Below are positions 32,894-59,928 of a stretch of DNA of 64,000 nucleotides, one piece after another. Position 1 is the first letter of the stretch, and each line of letters begins with the position of its first letter. Made by a program: the position numbers and the translations under genes. This DNA is from a virus: the IMG/VR virus record IMGVR_UViG_3300020185_000044, positions 1 through 64,000 of that record; one strand, 5' to 3'. Under the pieces are notes generated by a model. It ran no database searches, was not told the DNA's origin, and saw only the letters and a program-made list of their open reading frames with translations.

Positions 32894-33206
32894 AGAACTC
32901 TGGTTTTAATTCGCTTGGCTTTAGTCTTTCTTTCTTTGCTCTCGCAAGTTCCGTGGGGTCAATTCTAGTTTCTAATTTATATATAGCATCGGTAAGCTTC
33001 TCCATTTTATCGCCCCACTTTATAAACTCATCGAAAGCGTCATCATCTTGACCGAATATTATCTTCACTTTACTAATTTGCCTAGATATATCATCCATTT
33101 GACTTTTCAGCGCAACATATCCCTCTAAATAAGGGCTTTCAAATACCTTTTTAAGTATTCGTTTTGCTTCAGGTAAATCAAGTTTATCTATATAACTATG
33201 CTTCAT
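32868..33206 (-). CDS. Small helical protein, candidate small terminase
   Basis: The 112-aa, fully helical, charged protein is encoded just before terL and overlaps it. Small terminases are short, helical and placed here, but no HTH motif is obvious (KLDLPEAKRILKKVFES). It overlaps the GroES-like gene upstream by 4 nt. TerS assignment by position only. Confidence 0.4.
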   Translation of the reverse strand: MKHSYIDKLDLPEAKRILKKVFESPYLEGYVALKSQMDDISRQISKVKIIFGQDDDAFDEFIKWGDKMEKLTDAIYKLETRIDPTELARAKKERLKPSELKPEFYAQQRKDK

Positions 33207-36801: not shown

Positions 36802-36809
36802 TATGTTTG
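36802..36809 (+). promoter_or_regulatory. Rightward hub promoter (TTTG ... TATGTTTG)
   Basis: The -7 box is TATGTTTG, with a TTTG about 20 bases upstream (36782-36785) as a -33 element. Expected transcription start is about 36814, directly before the first leader hairpin. Confidence 0.7.
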
Positions 36810-36813
36810 CATT

Positions 36814-36897
36814 AACAACGAGTGCAGTCGTTAGAAAATATTTAAAATCCTTCCGTTAGTAGGCTCTGCACAGCCGAAAGCGTGAAGGATTTTTTTA
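36814..36897 (+). ncRNA. Kissing-loop leader RNA with terminator (copy 1)
   Basis: Hairpin 1 is AACGA/TCGTT (36817-36821, 36828-36832) with the six-base loop GTGCAG. After an A/T linker (AAAATATTTA), hairpin 2 is a long stem. AAAATCCTTC (36844-36853) pairs with GAAGGATTTT (36884-36893), then CGTT with AGCG, then GGCT with AGCC, capped by the loop CTGCAC (36866-36871). The two loops are perfectly complementary. The hairpin-2 stem runs into seven T, as an intrinsic terminator does. It could be a small RNA or an attenuator for the Rep-like gene at 36911. Confidence 0.75.
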
Positions 36898-36910: not shown

Positions 36911-37531
36911 ATGAAAACAGGAAACATTGTAAAAGCTAAATTTACTGACGAGTTTGTTAGAATACATAACTCAATAGCTAGAAATCCGAAAATGTCAATG
37001 AAGGAGAAGGGTCTGTTATTGATAATAATGTCATTACCCGAAAACTGGACATTACACATAAGTCAGCTTCCCGCTTTTTGCGGAGAAGGGAAAACCGCTG
37101 TCAGAAATGCGTTTAAGTCCTTGAAAGAAAAAGGCTTTATTATTGAAGTTGAAATGAGGGCTTCCGATGGGAGGTTTAACGGGAAAAATTATATGGCTTA
37201 CTACGAAAGTCAAACCATTGAAGAATTTATGGTAAAACGCTCTACAACCAAGGCAGATTCACCGCGTGCGGGTTTTCGGGATGCGGATAAACGGGATGCG
37301 GATAACAGGACACTACAAAGAAAGAACGTTACACTTAATAAAAAGAAAGAAAACAAAAAAGAAAAAAAAGAAAAAGAGCAGTTAGATTTTTCTTTTTTTC
37401 TTTTTAAGCTTAAGCAAGGTCAGCGCATACCAAAAACAGAAGTACCTAATCATTTATTAAATGAATTTAATTCTTCAACAGAAGTTTTGTATAATCAAGA
37501 AGAATCATATTACTTTATGCTACCATTTTAA
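36911..37531 (+). CDS. Winged-helix replication-initiator-like protein
   Basis: The N-terminal 110 residues match helix-turn-helix (HTH_36/RepL-like) initiator proteins: F-V-R-I-H-N-S-I, then L-L-I-I-M-S-L-P-E-N-W, then F-C-G-E-G-K-T-A-V-R-N-A-F-K-S-L-K-E-K-G-F-I. A lysine-rich linker (KKKENKKEKKEKE) follows, and a C-terminal hydrophobic tail. As the first rightward gene behind a structured leader, it is a good candidate for replication initiation or early regulation. Confidence 0.65.
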   Translation: MKTGNIVKAKFTDEFVRIHNSIARNPKMSMKEKGLLLIIMSLPENWTLHISQLPAFCGEGKTAVRNAFKSLKEKGFIIEVEMRASDGRFNGKNYMAYYESQTIEEFMVKRSTTKADSPRAGFRDADKRDADNRTLQRKNVTLNKKKENKKEKKEKEQLDFSFFLFKLKQGQRIPKTEVPNHLLNEFNSSTEVLYNQEESYYFMLPF

Positions 37532-38399: not shown

Positions 38400-38462
38400 C
38401 ACCAAGCTAAGAAGCGTTTTAATGCTTTCTTAGCGGCTGTTATGCAACGTTTTAATGTTGCA
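38397..38462 (+). repeat. Double hairpin with two GTTTTAAT loops (cassette junction)
   Basis: The first hairpin pairs GCTAAGAAGC with GCTTTCTTAGC around GTTTTAAT (38406-38434). The second pairs TGCAAC with GTTGCA around the same GTTTTAAT (38443-38462). It starts TAACACC like the repeats at 1321, 48918 and 55507, but differs in the stem sequence while keeping the pairing. Confidence 0.7.
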
Positions 38463-48283: not shown

Positions 48284-48386
48284 CATTACACAAAACGGGT
48301 AGGTATATGATTAGTGTGCGATTGCACTAACCTTTGAATTAAAACAAATATTAACTAAGCACATTAACTATATACATTGTTAGGGT
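48284..48386 (+). repeat. attC-like cassette junction
   Basis: GTATATGATTAGTGTGC and GCACATTAACTATATAC pair with a few mismatches around a loop containing CTTTGAATTAA. The right end is GTTAGGGT (48379-48386), inverse to ACCCTAAC at 48613-48620. Confidence 0.65.
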
Positions 48387-48612: not shown

Positions 48613-48709
48613 ACCCTAACGTTTAGTATAAGATTAGTGCGCTAAACTATAAACTTTGAATTAAGCACTAACATAACCAAGCGCATTAATTTTATACATT
48701 GTTATGCGC
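48613..48709 (+). repeat. attC-like cassette junction
   Basis: ACCCTAACG, then GTATAAGATTAGTGCGC, a loop again containing CTTTGAATTAA, then GCGCATTAATTTTATAC and finally GTTATGCGC (48701-48709). The stems differ from the junction at 48284 but pair equally well. Confidence 0.7.
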
Positions 48710-48725
48710 TTTTAATTAAATTATT

Positions 48726-48911
48726 ATGGACTACAAATTAATTGACAACATTGAAGTAGATGGAATAGACACTAAAGACTATCCAGATTTTTGTGACGCA
48801 TTTATAGCAAGTGCGAAATATAATGGAAAACCAATGACTGACGAGCAATTAGATGAATTAAATGAGGATGGCGGATTTGTTTATAAATGTGTGGAAAATC
48901 ATTTGTTCTAA
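48726..48911 (+). CDS. Small acidic protein (61 aa), single-gene cassette
   Basis: It is acidic and soluble with two cysteines. It lies alone between GTTATGCGC (48701-48709) and GCGCATAAC (48914-48922). Function unknown. Confidence 0.55.
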   Translation: MDYKLIDNIEVDGIDTKDYPDFCDAFIASAKYNGKPMTDEQLDELNEDGGFVYKCVENHLF

Positions 48912-48913
48912 TT

Positions 48914-48971
48914 GCGCATAACACCAAGCTAAGAAACGTAAAGCGCAGCACAATGTTTAATCTTAGCACAA
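48914..48971 (+). repeat. Cassette end tag and diverged hairpin repeat
   Basis: GCGCATAAC is followed by the ACACCAAGCTAAGAAACG repeat start seen at 1321 and 55507. The other stem arm (AATGTTTAATCTTAGC) has diverged. Confidence 0.6.
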
Positions 48972-49437: not shown

Positions 49438-49445
49438 TATATTTG
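49438..49445 (+). promoter_or_regulatory. -7 box TATATTTG for the second kissing-loop leader
   Basis: The box is followed by CAACC, so transcription would start near 49450, 4 nt before the first hairpin. This is the same geometry as at 36802. Confidence 0.7.
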
Positions 49446-49449
49446 CAAC

Positions 49450-49540
49450 CTAAGAGCGTGAGACCTCAACTTAAAACATTTAGATAATTCCTTGCCGAGA
49501 ACCCTTCGGTCTCACGCCTTCTTGGTGGGGGATTATCGAC
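49450..49540 (+). ncRNA. Kissing-loop leader RNA (copy 2)
   Basis: Hairpin 1 is GAG/CTC (49454-49456, 49465-49467) with loop CGTGAGAC. After a linker ending AAAACATTTA, hairpin 2 pairs GATAATTCC (49483-49491) with GGGATTATC, CCGAGAA (49495-49501) with TTCTTGG (49519-49525), and GG with CC around the loop TCTCACG (49510-49516). CGTGAGA and TCTCACG are perfectly complementary. Sequence differs from copy 1 but the layout is the same. It precedes the HNH/AP2 and primase-helicase genes. Confidence 0.75.
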
Positions 49541-49555
49541 TTTATTATAATTATT

Positions 49556-50041
49556 ATGGCTGATAGAACACACGGAATGTCTAGCACTAGGGAATACAAG
49601 GTATGGAAGACTATAAAAGATAGGTGCTATGGAATTAATAGCGATTGCTATGACAGATACGGAGGCAGAGGTATAGTTATGCAGTATAATTGGATTAACA
49701 ACTACATAGAATACTATAATTATGCAAGTAAGATAGATGGATTCTCAGACCCTAATAAATCAATAGATAGAATAGATTCTAATGGAAACTACGAAGAGGG
49801 TAATATTAAATTCTCTACCCCTAGTCAACAATGCGCTAATAGAAGGCTATTCAAGAACTCTAAATCAGGCTACACTGGCGTAGTTAAAAAAGGAAAGAAA
49901 TACGAGGCTACCATAAGCGTTAACGGTAAAAGGATATATATAGGAAGGCATAAAGACCCTAAAGTATTGGCTATAATGAGAGACGAATATATAATCAAAA
50001 ACAATCTTACCGAGTACCCACTTCAAATTTTAAATAGATGA
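49556..50041 (+). CDS. HNH homing endonuclease with AP2 domain
   Basis: The 161-aa protein has Y-x-x-W-K-T-I-K-D-R-C-Y-G, then Y-G-G-R-G-I and S-I-D-R-I-D-S-N-G-N-Y-E-x-G-N-I-K-F-S, the usual core of AP2-HNH endonucleases. An AP2-type DNA-binding end follows (S-G-Y-T-G-V then Y-E-A-T-I-S-V-N-G-K-R-I-Y-I-G). Its stop overlaps the primase-helicase start by 4 nt. It may have inserted between leader RNA and helicase gene. Confidence 0.8.
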   Translation: MADRTHGMSSTREYKVWKTIKDRCYGINSDCYDRYGGRGIVMQYNWINNYIEYYNYASKIDGFSDPNKSIDRIDSNGNYEEGNIKFSTPSQQCANRRLFKNSKSGYTGVVKKGKKYEATISVNGKRIYIGRHKDPKVLAIMRDEYIIKNNLTEYPLQILNR

Positions 50042-51996
50042 ATAAAGTATCAGTATTCAAGCACTATAAAGACACTCACAGCCCTATACACGCAGATGTA
50101 TTTGGTATCTTAGAAAAGATAAAGACTGGAGGTAACGAGAAAGAACTAATCGAACACATAAGAACCTTAGAAGGTGATGAATATAAGAAAGAGAAACTAA
50201 AACTGCCGTTAATTTGCTTTGGTGGTACGTTTGGGAATAGAAGTAAAGACGGAATTATTAACGGTTCGGGTATGATTCCATTAGATTTTGATGAAGGCAC
50301 TGAGGATGAACTTAATGAACTTAGAAAAACATTAGAGTCTCAGCCATACACAATAGCAGTATTCTCTTCGCCACGTTTAAGAGGTAGATTTAAAGCTCTT
50401 ATACGCATCCCTGTTACATCTTCGGATGAAGAGTTCAAAAAGTATTTTGCCGCCTTAAAAAAGGAGTATAAGACCATAGACCCTAGTGGTAAAGATATTT
50501 CCAGAGCATCGTTCTTCACCTACGACCCTGATATTTACATTAACAAAGATGCTACGGTGTGGGATATTAAATACGAAACACCTAAGCAAAAGAAAACAAC
50601 AGAAAGATATACAGTTAGAGATTGGGATTCTGTTACCAATGCACTAAAGAAAATCGAGACAGCAGAAGATGGGTATAAGCATTTAGCTAGAACTAAGATT
50701 GCATATTTAATGGGAGGTTGGATTAGCGCAAAGCAAATTAACTACCAAGAGGCAATGAAATTATTAGAGGATGCCGTTGCTAAGAATACAACAGACCTTG
50801 ATGCTGCAATGAAAACCGTTAAGGATTGTGTACAAGCAGGAATGAACGCCCCACTTAATATGTCAGAGCAAAGAGAGGTATTAAAACTATCCGTTGCAGC
50901 CCCTAGAAGGTATAAGCCTATGTCTGAGGTATGGGATGATGTACAGAATTTCTATGAAACGGGCTATAAGCGTGGTTGGGATGTTGGGTTTAATTGTGCT
51001 AAAGAATATCTTAGCATCTTAGAGGGTAGTACTAGTTATGTTTATGCTGCGCCTGCTGCTGGTAAAACTCAGGTTTGGATGGAGATACTTATGAATATAA
51101 CCATTGACAGAGTTAGGAGTGGGGAAGATTTTTACAATCAAATATTCACGCCCGAAACGGGAGATGTAGCACAAGTGTATGGGGAGTTAATTAGTATTCA
51201 CGCTAAGAAATCTTTTGTTGGTAAATATAAGATGTCGGAAGATGAAATGAAAGCATCTGCTGATTTTGTATCTAAGTACTTTTTGATATTAGACTACGAA
51301 GGAGATACGGCTGATATGAAAGGAATATTAACACAAGTGGAGGCTGCTGAAAGAGAATTTGGAATACATATTAATACGGTTACTATTGACCCGTTAAACT
51401 ACCTATCTTTTGATGAGGGTAGATATAGTAGAAGGGATTTATCCATTGCTAAGGATTTAGATTTATTCCTTGCTGATGCCCGAAAAAATAAAAGGCATAA
51501 CTGTATAATAACCCATGCACGCGACCAGCAAGCAATTAAAAATAATGATGGTCAATGGTATTATCCGTTAGTCAGCCCTAGAATGATTTTAGATGGGCAA
51601 CAGTTTTTTAGAAAAGGTATGTTAATGATTAGTATATACAGACCATTAGATATAAAGAATGAGCCTTTAGCTGATGATAACGGTTATCCCGCAGAGCAGA
51701 ACGAAACCCAAGTATGGATACAGAAAGCTAAACCTAAAGGCTGCGCTAAGGTAGGTATGTTTAAATTATTCTACGACTTTAAGGCTAATAGATATTACGA
51801 GAAAGACGAACAAGGTAGAGAGTTCTTTGCTTGGGGAGTACCTAGACAGCAAGAAGATAAATTTCCGCCAATACAAAAGGAGATAAAGCAAATACCCCCC
51901 GTTAAGAAAGAAGAGGACTCATTAAAAGCTAACACAAGTTTTGATGAGCCAACCCCAATAATAGATGATATTGAAATAATGGAATCCCCATTTTAA
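50038..51996 (+). CDS. Primase-helicase: BT4734/VirE-N domain plus RepA-type ATPase
   Basis: The N-terminal 170 residues match the VirE N-terminal/BT4734-like domain (H-A-D-V-F-G-I-L-E-K-I-K-T-G, then M-I-P-L-D-F-D and F-S-S-P-R-L-R-G-R-F-K-A). The C-terminal half is a RecA-fold helicase: Walker A A-A-P-A-A-G-K-T (about residues 336-343) and Walker B T-V-T-I-D-P-L-N-Y-L (about 445). It should unwind DNA at the phage fork and may also prime. The last 60 residues are linker-like and acidic (I-E-I-M-E-S-P-F end). Confidence 0.85.
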   Translation: MNKVSVFKHYKDTHSPIHADVFGILEKIKTGGNEKELIEHIRTLEGDEYKKEKLKLPLICFGGTFGNRSKDGIINGSGMIPLDFDEGTEDELNELRKTLESQPYTIAVFSSPRLRGRFKALIRIPVTSSDEEFKKYFAALKKEYKTIDPSGKDISRASFFTYDPDIYINKDATVWDIKYETPKQKKTTERYTVRDWDSVTNALKKIETAEDGYKHLARTKIAYLMGGWISAKQINYQEAMKLLEDAVAKNTTDLDAAMKTVKDCVQAGMNAPLNMSEQREVLKLSVAAPRRYKPMSEVWDDVQNFYETGYKRGWDVGFNCAKEYLSILEGSTSYVYAAPAAGKTQVWMEILMNITIDRVRSGEDFYNQIFTPETGDVAQVYGELISIHAKKSFVGKYKMSEDEMKASADFVSKYFLILDYEGDTADMKGILTQVEAAEREFGIHINTVTIDPLNYLSFDEGRYSRRDLSIAKDLDLFLADARKNKRHNCIITHARDQQAIKNNDGQWYYPLVSPRMILDGQQFFRKGMLMISIYRPLDIKNEPLADDNGYPAEQNETQVWIQKAKPKGCAKVGMFKLFYDFKANRYYEKDEQGREFFAWGVPRQQEDKFPPIQKEIKQIPPVKKEEDSLKANTSFDEPTPIIDDIEIMESPF

Positions 51997-52814: not shown

Positions 52815-52822
52815 TACATTTG
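52815..52822 (+). promoter_or_regulatory. Leaderless promoter TACATTTG-TTGT-ATG
   Basis: Four bases separate the box from ATG 52827 of the NUMOD4 remnant. Confidence 0.6.
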
Positions 52823-52826
52823 TTGT

Positions 52827-52934
52827 ATGGAAAAATGGAAAAATATAAAAAATTTTGAAGGTATTTATAAGGTTTCAAATAAAGGTAATGTAAAAAGCCT
52901 AAAAAGAAAGAGAATTATTTTTATTAAACATTAA
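52827..52934 (+). pseudogene. NUMOD4 remnant of a homing endonuclease
   Basis: The 35 residues MEKWKNIKNFEGIYKVSNKG followed by NVKSLKR are the NUMOD4 module seen intact at 53547 (EEWRDVSGYDGRYQVSNLGRVKS) and 58277. The HNH part is missing. It lies between the ERF remnant and the intact ERF gene. Confidence 0.72.
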
Positions 52935-55371: not shown

Positions 55372-55500
55372 ATGAAAAAGAAACTAATTGAGATACCCGA
55401 AGAAGTATTTAATCAAATAGAATTATCCGCAAAAAAGAATGTAAGGAGTGTAAATAAAGAGATAGTGTTTCTTCTTACGAGTGCGGTGGGTAAAAAATAA
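55372..55500 (+). CDS. Arc-type ribbon-helix-helix protein (42 aa)
   Basis: K-L-I-E-I-P-E-E-V-F-N-Q-I, then R-S-V-N-K-E-I-V-F-L-L is the ribbon-helix-helix pattern of Arc-type repressors. It lies at the end of the cassette with the duplicated genes, before the hairpin repeat 55507-55580. Probably a DNA-binding regulator. Confidence 0.6.
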   Translation: MKKKLIEIPEEVFNQIELSAKKNVRSVNKEIVFLLTSAVGKK

Positions 55501-55506
55501 TTGCAT

Positions 55507-55580
55507 ATAACACCAAGCTAAGAAACGTAAAGCGAAGCGTATGTTTCCTTAGCGACTGTTAACGCACGTTTTAATGTGCG
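55507..55580 (+). repeat. 74-bp double-hairpin repeat, identical to 1321-1394
   Basis: It is the same 74 bases as at 1321-1394. It follows a cassette whose genes are paralogues of those before the first copy. Confidence 0.8.
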
Positions 55581-57701: not shown

Positions 57702-58116
57702 AAAGAAACCCTGTAAAGACCCTAACAACACAGAAGAGGGTAAGATGTGTTATTACTTTACTAAAAAATTTGGTTGTGCCTCGTGCAGCGCTAAATACAA
57801 GCCTAAGACAAAAACTAAGAAGGTAAAACAGAAGATTAAGCAAGTTAGTTCTAAAAGAGCTAGGATGAATCAGGCTTATTCTGTTATGAGAAAGTTGTTT
57901 TTAAAGGATAAGACTTGTGAATTTCCTAGTTGTTCCCGCAAACACACAGAGGATAATCAACTAACCATACACCACAAGAGAGGAAGAAACGGAGAAAGAT
58001 TACTAGATACAACCTATTGGATGGCTGTATGTATGGAACATCATAAATACATAGAAGAACACCGAGAAGAAAGTTTCAAGAAGGGTTGGTTAATAAATAG
58101 AAATAAAGAGATATGA
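57691..58116 (+). CDS. HNH-type, cysteine-rich nuclease (NinG-like)
   Basis: The 141-aa protein has an N-terminal cysteine cluster (G-C-A-S-C-S-A-K-Y), a very basic stretch, then C-E-F-P-S-C-S, L-T-I-H-H-K-R-G-R-N-G and C-M-E-H-H-K-Y-I. The C-x4-C and H-H elements suit an HNH/NinG-like endonuclease of the recombination set. It is ATGA-coupled to the remnant at 58113, the former start of the next nuclease gene. Confidence 0.65.
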   Translation: MVSKKKPCKDPNNTEEGKMCYYFTKKFGCASCSAKYKPKTKTKKVKQKIKQVSSKRARMNQAYSVMRKLFLKDKTCEFPSCSRKHTEDNQLTIHHKRGRNGERLLDTTYWMAVCMEHHKYIEEHREESFKKGWLINRNKEI

Positions 58117-58241
58117 CATATAGTTTCAGTAGAATAAGTTCGTTTCATAATTGCCCTAGTGGATGGTTTATTTTTATTTATATTTGTATAGTAGAGTTAC
58201 GGCTACTTTTAAATATTTTTACAAAGCCCTGTCAAGAGTAG
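58113..58241 (+). pseudogene. N-terminal remnant of a Cas4/RecB-like nuclease
   Basis: MTYSFSRISSFHNCPSGW is the start of a PD-(D/E)XK nuclease with its first iron-sulfur cysteine, matching the Y-S-W-S-R-V...C...W of the gene at 59059. The frame then runs into a homing-endonuclease promoter and stops. It is still ATGA-coupled to the HNH gene before it. Confidence 0.7.
58179..58186 (+). promoter_or_regulatory. -7 box TATATTTG of the inserted homing endonuclease
   Basis: It matches TAnnTTTG inside the remnant. The leader then contains an inverted repeat, GAGTTACGG (58194-58202) with CCGTAACCTC (58245-58254). Confidence 0.6.
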
Positions 58242-58276
58242 AGTCCGTAACCTCGAAATTGATGGGGTTTATTTTT

Positions 58277-59062
58277 ATGCAAGAGTTTACAAAAGAAGAA
58301 TTAAAAAACGAAGAGTGGAGAGATGTAGTTGGATACGAAGGATTGTATCTGGTTAGTGATTTAGGGAGAGTAAAAAGCAGTTACATTGTTAGTAGGGCTA
58401 AAGATGGAATCATTAAAATGGGGAGCGATAAGAATGGGTATTGCAGTTTCGCTTTATGGAAAGACAAATCACAAATTACCAAGAATGGACATCGTGTAGT
58501 CGCTAAAGCATTTTTACCTAATCCAAAAAACAAACCGTGCGTGAATCATATAGATGGTGATAAAAGGAATAATCGAACAACCAACCTAGAATGGGTTACA
58601 TATAAAGAAAATTCCCGACACGCGATTGAAACTGGTCTGTATAGACACCCTGAAATGAAGAAGGGGTACGACTCGCCACACAGTAAAGAGGTGTATCAGC
58701 TTACGGTAGAGGGTGTTTTTATAAAAGCGTTTGGTTCATCTATCGAGGCGGCTATAAGTTTATTTGGAGATATTAATAGAGGCTCTATTATACGCAAATG
58801 CTGTAGAGATAAATCAAGTTCTTATAAGGGTTTTCTATGGAGATACCCTAAAGACGTTAATAAAGATGCGATTTCAAAACATAAAAGAATAATACAACAG
58901 TTTTCTTTAGAGGGGATTCTTATTAAAGAGTATACTGGTACTAGTGCAGCCCAAAAAGCCACTGGAGTCTTGGCTACTGGTATAGGGAACAATGCAAACG
59001 GGAGGACAAATACCGCTGGGGGGTTTGTCTGGAAATATAAATATGATTACAATTCAATATGA
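58277..59062 (+). CDS. NUMOD4-HNH-NUMOD1 homing endonuclease (261 aa)
   Basis: I take ATG 58277 (MQEFTKEELKNEEW). The protein has NUMOD4 (E-W-R-D-V-V-G-Y-E-G-L-Y-L-V-S-D-L-G-R-V-K-S), then HNH_3 (N-H-I-D-G-D-K-R-N-N, N-L-E-W-V-T). Two NUMOD1 repeats follow (V-Y-Q-L...F-I-K-A-F-G-S and I-I-Q-Q-F...L-I-K-E-Y-T-G). It overlaps the start of the intact Cas4-like gene by 4 nt and sits inside the former 5' end of that gene. Confidence 0.88.
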   Translation: MQEFTKEELKNEEWRDVVGYEGLYLVSDLGRVKSSYIVSRAKDGIIKMGSDKNGYCSFALWKDKSQITKNGHRVVAKAFLPNPKNKPCVNHIDGDKRNNRTTNLEWVTYKENSRHAIETGLYRHPEMKKGYDSPHSKEVYQLTVEGVFIKAFGSSIEAAISLFGDINRGSIIRKCCRDKSSSYKGFLWRYPKDVNKDAISKHKRIIQQFSLEGILIKEYTGTSAAQKATGVLATGIGNNANGRTNTAGGFVWKYKYDYNSI

Positions 59063-59928
59063 AAGAAACAATATATTCTTGGAGTAGGGTTAACTATACT
59101 TGTTTAGCCGCTTGGTATCAAAATTATGTACTAGAAAAGAAGGGTGAGGACAACATCTGGAATGTCGGAGGTTTATTCGAGCATAACCTAATGGAACACG
59201 CAGCTAAAGGCGCAATGACACAAGAGGATTGCCTAGAAGCTGTTAAGAATACTTGGTACGATGCTGTTGATGGATTAGACAACCCATTTGGGTACTACGG
59301 TAAAGAAGGTAATTACATTGAAGCCGCTGAACATTACTACAACAAAACACTTCCGTTCTTCACTAAGGAGAATACTAATTGGTTATTAGGTAAAACAGTT
59401 TCAGTAGAAGAGCATTTAGAATTTACCCTTCCTTCGGGCAAAAAATTTCAAGGCTTTGTAGATAGAGTAAGTGTTGATAGTGATGGAAAGAGCAACCTAG
59501 CCATCAGAGATTATAAAATAAGCAAACGCTTTACAAGAAAAAACGTAAAAGAAAAGGCTAGACAGCTATACATTTACGCTTATGGCTATCATCAGAAACA
59601 CGGAGTATATCCAGAGCAATTAGTTTTTGAGTTCTTTCAATTTTGGGACAAACCAAAGGTTATTAAGTTCAAGAAAACTGATATGGATGAGGCTATTGAG
59701 TTTGCTGAAAGTAGAATAAGAGAGATTGAAGGTAGATTAAAGGTAGAGAGAATGGGTATGAAGGGAATGTTTAACCCTGACTATAAAGAACTATTAGATG
59801 ATAACGGAGAGCGTAATATGTTCTGTAAGTCTGTCTGTGGGTATCGTAATGTCTGTCCTTTCATAGACGGAAACCACCTCAAAATGTTTAAAACAAAAGA
59901 GTTACAAGATATAGAAATAAAAAAATAG
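59059..59928 (+). CDS. Cas4/RecB-like PD-(D/E)XK nuclease with 4Fe-4S cluster
   Basis: A first cysteine (Y-T-C-L-A-A-W-Y, about residue 15) pairs with three near the C-terminus (F-C-K-S-V-C-G-Y-R-N-V-C-P-F). This is the four-cysteine iron-sulfur arrangement of Cas4, AddB and Dna2. Between them are G-L-F-E-H-N-L-M-E, F-V-D-R-V, L-A-I-R-D-Y-K-I (the D/K catalytic pair) and Q-L-Y-I-Y-A-Y. It probably resects ends for the ERF protein. Its N-terminus looks re-created after insertion of the homing gene. Confidence 0.85.
   Translation: MKETIYSWSRVNYTCLAAWYQNYVLEKKGEDNIWNVGGLFEHNLMEHAAKGAMTQEDCLEAVKNTWYDAVDGLDNPFGYYGKEGNYIEAAEHYYNKTLPFFTKENTNWLLGKTVSVEEHLEFTLPSGKKFQGFVDRVSVDSDGKSNLAIRDYKISKRFTRKNVKEKARQLYIYAYGYHQKHGVYPEQLVFEFFQFWDKPKVIKFKKTDMDEAIEFAESRIREIEGRLKVERMGMKGMFNPDYKELLDDNGERNMFCKSVCGYRNVCPFIDGNHLKMFKTKELQDIEIKK

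Follow-up and report, generated by a model that had tools for sequence, protein, structure and literature searches.

Kissing-loop leaders ending in a terminator-type hairpin precede replication-initiator and other genes in Flavobacteriia phages

A family of short 5′ leaders, in which the loop of a promoter-proximal hairpin is complementary to the tip of a following terminator-type hairpin, was found in phages of the Flavobacteriia and probably acts in cis as a transcription attenuator whose terminator is pinned by the kissing loop. We hold the case to be evenly balanced for the broader proposal that these leaders form an undescribed class of cis-acting RNA control, widespread in Flavobacteriia phages, in which a loop docked on the terminator tip gates genome replication. 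The window (the whole stretch of 64,000 nucleotides analyzed, part of a 65,958-base virus record) belongs to a Flavobacteriia-type phage with TAnnTTTG promoters and contains three kissing-loop leaders, at 36802, 49438 and 58179, with a TAnnTTTG box ahead of each. In the features listed here, H1 is the 5′ hairpin, K the pairing sequence in its loop, H2 the long stem of the second hairpin, H3 the short stem at its tip and K′ the partner of K in the apical loop.

36802-36809, plus strand: −7 box TATGTTTG of leader 1, recognized from sequence; expected transcript start 36814
36817-36832, plus strand: H1 of leader 1, made of AACGA (36817-36821), loop K GTGCAG (36822-36827) and TCGTT (36828-36832)
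36844-36893, plus strand (to 36896 with the U run): long hairpin of leader 1, H2 of 10-14 bp plus H3, with U7 after it
36858-36861 and 36876-36878, plus strand: internal loop of leader 1, AGUA and GAA
36862-36865 and 36872-36875, plus strand: H3 of leader 1, GGCT and AGCC
36866-36871, plus strand: apical loop of leader 1, K′ CTGCAC
36890-36896, plus strand: T7 (U7) run of leader 1
36911-37531, plus strand: HTH_36 replication initiator / DnaD-like helicase loader of 206 aa behind leader 1, ATG at 36911
49438-49445, plus strand: −7 box TATATTTG of leader 2
49451-49473, plus strand: H1 of leader 2, TAAG/CTTA, loop containing K GCGTGAGACC (49456-49465)
49483-49537, plus strand: H2 of leader 2, 19 bp, loop containing K′ GGTCTCACGC (49508-49517); T run absent
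49556-50041, plus strand: HNH endonuclease gene behind leader 2, then primase/helicase at 50038-51996
58179-58186, plus strand: −7 box TATATTTG of leader 3
58190-58207, plus strand: H1 of leader 3, AGTAG/CTACT, loop containing K GTTACGG (58196-58202)
58224-58276 (including T5), plus strand: H2 of leader 3 (12 bp), internal loop GAGUA/GAAA and H3 GAG/CTC
58245-58251 and 58272-58276, plus strand: apical loop K′ CCGTAAC and T5 of leader 3
58277-59062, plus strand: NUMOD4-HNH homing-type endonuclease gene behind leader 3

The three K sequences are unrelated and the fold is the same. In leader 1, the loops GUGCAG of the 5′-terminal hairpin and CUGCAC at the tip of the terminator hairpin are perfectly complementary. 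The minimum free energy (MFE) structure of the RNA 36814-36897 consists of exactly H1 and the long hairpin (-24.9 kcal/mol, z -3.79), and its energy was equalled by none of 200 shuffles. Both loops of leader 1 are about 100% unpaired when the kissing contact is left out, and K and K′ are free in the pseudoknot-free fold of copies 1 and 3. The joint score of H1, kissing and H2 was equalled by 1 of 500 dinucleotide shuffles for copy 1, which taken alone is only modestly significant, and by none of 500 each for copies 2 and 3. The sequence-only reading had described leader 1 as a two-hairpin RNA with complementary loops behind a promoter and ending in seven T, and every element was recovered where it had been placed; the terminator-type hairpin that it saw ahead of a replication gene is the long hairpin with T7 before the ATG of the HTH_36 initiator. 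Its second copy (49438-49540) proved genuine, with a loop pairing of 10 bp (GCGTGAGACC/GGTCTCACGC) and a stem of 19 bp, while leader 3 (58179-58276), absent from that reading, was detected by a descriptor scan. Among annotated phages, no nucleotide similarity to copy 1 was found, and similarity to copies 2 and 3 was confined to their HNH genes.

Leader 3 and its NUMOD4-HNH gene make up a cassette of about 1 kb (window ~58110-59052) that is missing in the relative G002, and the 3′ end of this HNH gene overlaps a PD-(D/E)XK nuclease gene (59059-59928). A NUMOD4-type HNH fragment at 52822-52920 of the window, matching the HNH protein behind leader 3 by tblastn (E 5e-6), looks like the remnant of a decayed homing endonuclease.

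In total, 17 distinct leaders were collected, with very sparse sampling beyond the Flavobacteriia. The consensus order is TAnnTTTG box, H1, linker, H2 as the terminator-type hairpin, and AUG, and the 17 share no primary sequence. In Flavobacterium, the −7 box TAnnTTTG occupies positions -12 to -5 (PMC9723704); H1 (3-10 bp) begins 1-9 nt after the box, at or near the transcript start, and holds K (6-11 nt) inside its loop. A linker 8-30 nt long leads on to H2 (8-19 bp) and H3 (3-5 bp), and in many leaders a purine internal loop separates H2 from H3, being of the AGUA/GAA type, as in loop E motifs, in copies 1 and 3, and of tandem GA types, such as UGAA/GGAU and GGAA/GGAA, in other members. A run of at least four U follows the hairpin in 31 of 35 leaders, the exceptions being 49438 (copy 2), its G002 allele, Gundel_1 33891 and Freya 775, and the AUG lies 6-26 nt 3′ of H2 in 16 of the 17. 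Most leaders have what an intrinsic-terminator attenuator has between promoter and start codon, namely a stable hairpin with a U run; in the window, copy 2 lacks the U run. Since K′ sits in the apical loop, often flanked by H3, kissing and the terminator stem can form together; as judged from sequence, the leader would be a docked fold rather than two exclusive structures.

Within the 17 leaders, a set chosen for the feature, each score was equalled by no more than 1 of 500 dinucleotide shuffles; the descriptor scores are stacking sums and do not give the free energy of the kissing complex. When loops were cross-paired in this same chosen set, its own K′ was the best partner of K in 17 of 17, with a mean of -15.7 kcal/mol for own partners versus -6.7 for mismatched ones. 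Among 80 DUF6291 initiator loci from virus contigs, chosen by protein alone and including near-duplicates, 30 reached a score of -34 or lower (1.15 in shuffles) and 19 a score of -38 or lower (0.1 in shuffles). In 23 non-redundant loci, chosen by protein and a hairpin near the ATG with loop pairing ignored, the pairing of the hairpin loop with its own 5′ region rather than those of other loci was matched by 0 of 10000 permutations. Moreover, a leader predicted solely from protein homology to phage FCL-2 was found in a metagenome contig (L121) whose initiator is 41% identical, with different letters. Across nine phage stretches with 192 gene starts preceded by non-coding sequence, leaders accounted for 12 of the 14 best scores. 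A panel of 1042 promoters was only mildly enriched as a whole (21 real versus 4.4 shuffled at a score of -36 or lower), which indicates that the element is rare and gene-specific. A scan of the window by total folding energy, made without promoter or gene context, could not tell leaders and coding sequence apart; the context of a promoter or start codon is required. The shuffles, the permutation result and the matched variation bear out the view that leader 1 is an evolved RNA and no product of chance, and the homologues with compensatory loop changes that this view called for are many, their loops being completely different yet matched.

Scans of cultured phages revealed the architecture in elemoA-F, Tenacibaculum phage Gundel_1 (two leaders), Cellulophaga phages phi19:3 and phi46:3 (two loci), Polaribacter phages Freya_1 (two), Danklef_1 and P12002S, and Flavobacterium phage FCL-2. 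It is also present in the metagenome virus contigs L121, L204 and L237 and at many DUF6291 loci; among genome contigs and Bacteroidia genomes most DUF6291 loci have no leader, the exceptions being two bacterial-genome loci (L097 and L100). The initiator loci of RAP44 and Panino are without a leader, a candidate ahead of the Panino initiator not having been confirmed. The L100 leader (1343-1470, bacterial genome G089) is an extreme form with perfect 18-bp H2 arms, a K of 7-10 bp and an additional hairpin within the loop, and is followed by a DUF6291 gene and then a DnaC-like ATPase gene. Eleven of the 17 distinct leaders precede initiator operons from families without homology to one another (HTH_36, DUF6291, Phg_2220_C and others), a small ORF coming first in those of the elemo phages; the other six precede two HNH genes, one AntA/KilAC gene, one YopX gene, one hydrolase gene and, in one case, no gene. 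Phg_2220_C had no matches in the family of G297. Two candidate views, of the RNA as part of HNH cassettes (from copies 2 and 3) and as Rep-specific (from copy 1), were dropped, HNH and Rep genes each being a subset of this list.

Three virus contigs were found with loci corresponding to those of the window. Around the copy-1 locus, G002 is 93-97% identical to the window, and its upstream sequence is kept through the final base of the −7 box, after which comes a wholly different leader of the same fold (GGCACGA/TCGTGCC, terminator AAACCCAAG...CTTGGGTTTTTTT). Behind this leader there is no initiator gene but about 430 nt of non-coding sequence, in which no convincing gene remnant was found. At the copy-2 locus, G001 retains the leader up to the ATG and differs in the HNH gene (NUMOD4-type) and the primase, and G002 has another leader (GAGCTACAC/GTGTAGCTC) followed by an HTH_36 initiator and primase. 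These comparisons with G001 and G002 identify the leaders as modules bounded by the −7 box and the start codon, both of which are recombination joints. Similarly, elemoA-D and elemoE/F are identical to the end of TATCTTTG, beyond which both leader and initiator differ; Freya_1 and Danklef_1 have a common leader with different genes after it, and phi19:3 and phi46:3 show the same kind of exchange at the leader joints. In these two phages a nearly identical leader stands before different genes, an HNH gene in phi46:3 (L091 19606-20427) and the DUF6291 initiator in phi19:3 (L085 3329-4112). Together with copy 2 of the window, this pair of phages suggests that HNH genes repeatedly insert between leader and initiator.

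Sequence comparison establishes how the leader is built and where it lies, that K and K′ vary in step and that its end resembles a terminator; termination at the hairpin in vivo, an influence of kissing on it and the direction of that influence we infer. A stable hairpin with a U-tract just ahead of a start codon attenuates transcription. In the attenuator proposed here, transcription would begin about 5 nt after the TAnnTTTG box, and the 5′-terminal H1 would fold immediately, exposing loop K. After the A/U-rich linker, the 5′ arm of the terminator would be made and K′, on emerging from the polymerase, would pair with the waiting K ahead of synthesis of the 3′ arm and the U-tract. The occurrence and timing of docking would then set how frequently the polymerase stops at the U-tract and how frequently it reads through to the AUG some 6-26 nt on, usually that of a replication initiator. 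A signal, if any, could come from kinetics alone (elongation rate, temperature) or from a factor recognizing the fold and not the sequence; because the fold is sequence-free, control by a riboswitch aptamer, by a protein specific for sequence or by an antisense partner is disfavored. A classical either/or attenuator is unlikely, because the apical position of K′ lets kissing and the terminator stem coexist, and for the same compatibility the size and sign of the docking effect are not readable from sequence; we lean slightly toward docking that slows completion of the hairpin and favors readthrough. The earlier proposal of an attenuator for the Rep-like gene holds in its first part, attenuation being the best reading, but not in its second: the leader is not Rep-specific, because HNH, AntA/KilAC, YopX and hydrolase genes also follow it and the copy-1 leader of G002 has no Rep behind it.

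The contact might instead act with the opposite sign, kissing stabilizing the terminator rod so that docking means termination and undocking readthrough. The rigid rod of H2, recurrent purine internal loop (AGUA/GAA, UGAA/GGAU, GGAA/GGAA) and H3, with a cap loop that often holds little besides K′, would suit such a clamp; however, neither sign is distinguishable in the sequence, a strong stem with U7-U9 would be expected to terminate unaided, and we find this version doubtful. Termination is perhaps neither the only nor the conserved function, since the four of 35 leaders without a U run (49438, its G002 allele, Gundel_1 33891 and Freya 775) keep the kissing fold. Because the fold is thus kept where termination is doubtful, there is some room for a leader that governs mRNA stability or translation, in which H1 and the kissing fold protect the 5′ end or tune initiation and the U-tract is secondary. 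The AUG is close enough to the fold for this, but the U run of the 31 other leaders would be unneeded, and we regard such a role as unlikely. It is quite unlikely that the leader stays on RNA polymerase and overrides its own and later terminators as an RNA-only modifier. A promoter-proximal phage leader of two hairpins and ~70-100 nt, lying ahead of replication operons and having no obvious protein partner, recalls the put RNA, which acts alone (PMC9378689), but put RNAs have a common sequence with specific residues for the polymerase contact, where the sequence here is free, and the second hairpin here is the terminator itself.

The 430 nt of non-coding sequence behind the G002 copy-1 leader would also agree with a stand-alone, trans-acting sRNA of ~85-100 nt with its 3′ end at the terminator, the following gene being incidental. 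We think this improbable: the AUG lies close behind H2 in all but one of the 17 leaders, and a common trans target is lacking because the loops are not conserved. Complementary loops allow two RNAs to pair, as they do in plasmid rep leaders, and the sequence-only reading had raised a switch controlled by dimerization or antisense RNA. This was not supported and is highly improbable, for the loops fit their own RNA best, and a search of the opposite strand for TAnnTTTG promoters found a box at only 1 of 17 leaders. Some loop complementarity is common in terminators, and random window positions give moderate scores, as would be expected of chance or of an inverted repeat that serves as an operator in the DNA and forms no RNA structure. 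Nevertheless, the enrichment at initiator starts is far above shuffles and permutation, the order promoter-H1-H2-AUG is fixed, and an operator has no need of the H1 and H3 stems around K and K′, so that this explanation is scarcely credible.

Searches of Rfam 15 gave no match in the window above the curated threshold, with only weak sub-threshold hits for the first two leaders, and only tRNAs across 19 loci with homologous leaders, in keeping with the earlier statement that the RNA belongs to no known family. No description of such leaders was found in the open-licence papers that were searched. The conserved ligand-binding nucleotides of a riboswitch were not found in the 17 leaders, whose purine internal loops recur only in a subset. 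Tandem pseudoknot repeats, as in type III toxin-antitoxin RNAs, are absent, the leaders being single units ahead of HTH_36, HNH or other genes and of nothing ToxN-like; nor is there an IscB/IsrB-type neighbor as for HEARO/omega RNAs, the HNH proteins of copies 2 and 3 being of the NUMOD4/HNH_3 or small HNH kind.

Another structured intergenic element, located before a small ORF, occurs at 48618-48712 of the window and at 32947-33060 of Gundel_1 (L086), with 80% mean column identity over ~130 nt and paired differences in the inverted repeats (TTAGTGCGC..GCACTAAC..AAGCGCATTAA versus TTAGTACGC..GTACTAAC..AAGCGTATTAA); the window has a related copy at 48352-48382. The top-scoring 48620-48712 was rejected as a kissing leader, its structure being different and its sequence conserved. 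Repeats of the forms TAACACCAAGCTAAGAA(A/G)CG.. and ATG(C/T)TT(T/C)CTTAGCG(G/A)CTGTTA.. (window 38402-38458, 48909-48949 and 55498-55577; 93% and 81% identical) stand right behind small ORFs and resemble elements scattered at gene ends or sites of recombination.

How Bacteroidota phages control the initiation of replication is largely uncharted. If the proposal is true, unrelated initiators (HTH_36, DUF6291, Phg_2220_C and others) would be under one RNA control element, and intrinsic termination would be tunable through contact with the terminator loop. A class defined by mechanics and not by sequence would fit any initiator family, move as a module and be missed by sequence-based catalogues; structured RNAs of free sequence would escape homology catalogues in general, where a simple architectural search finds them. 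The elemo phages, FCL-2, Gundel_1, Freya_1 and phi19:3 are cultured, and direct testing is hence possible.

Among known systems, the gene 32 leader of T4 likewise places a pseudoknot ahead of a phage replication gene; it is subject to autogenous translational repression by gp32, whereas here unrelated proteins have one leader type. Classical intrinsic-terminator attenuators and riboswitches likewise place an intrinsic terminator right before the start codon, but the leaders described here have no aptamer residues, leader peptide or exclusive antiterminator, and what they conserve is the pairing made with the loop of the terminator itself. Loop contact in ColIb-P9 acts on translation, and in pT181 the terminator and pre-emptor are mutually exclusive. 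Plasmid rep leaders that use loop pairing or attenuation by a countertranscript include the ColIb-P9 repZ pseudoknot, IncB, IncL/M and the pT181 attenuator (cited in PMC10724649). Like the phage leaders, they precede a replication initiator and contain either a terminator or a contact of the loop-loop or pseudoknot kind. The intramolecular loop-loop contact of these leaders is found here as well; they are switched by antisense RNA, whereas none was found here in the search for TAnnTTTG boxes. The put RNA of phage HK022 (putL/putR), ~70 nt with two hairpins, lies behind an early phage promoter and needs no phage protein, and is similar in its setting as a promoter-proximal phage RNA of two hairpins that acts on termination (PMC9378689). 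Two hairpins behind a promoter are found here too, and the shared put sequence is not expected in this phylum. The put RNAs have a shared sequence and are no terminator themselves, in contrast to a free sequence and a second hairpin that is the terminator; moreover, the words kissing and pseudoknot do not occur in PMC9378689, whereas kissing loops define the leaders described here. HK022 put is nearest to them in setting, and the antisense-controlled plasmid rep leaders come nearest as regards topology and the gene under control.
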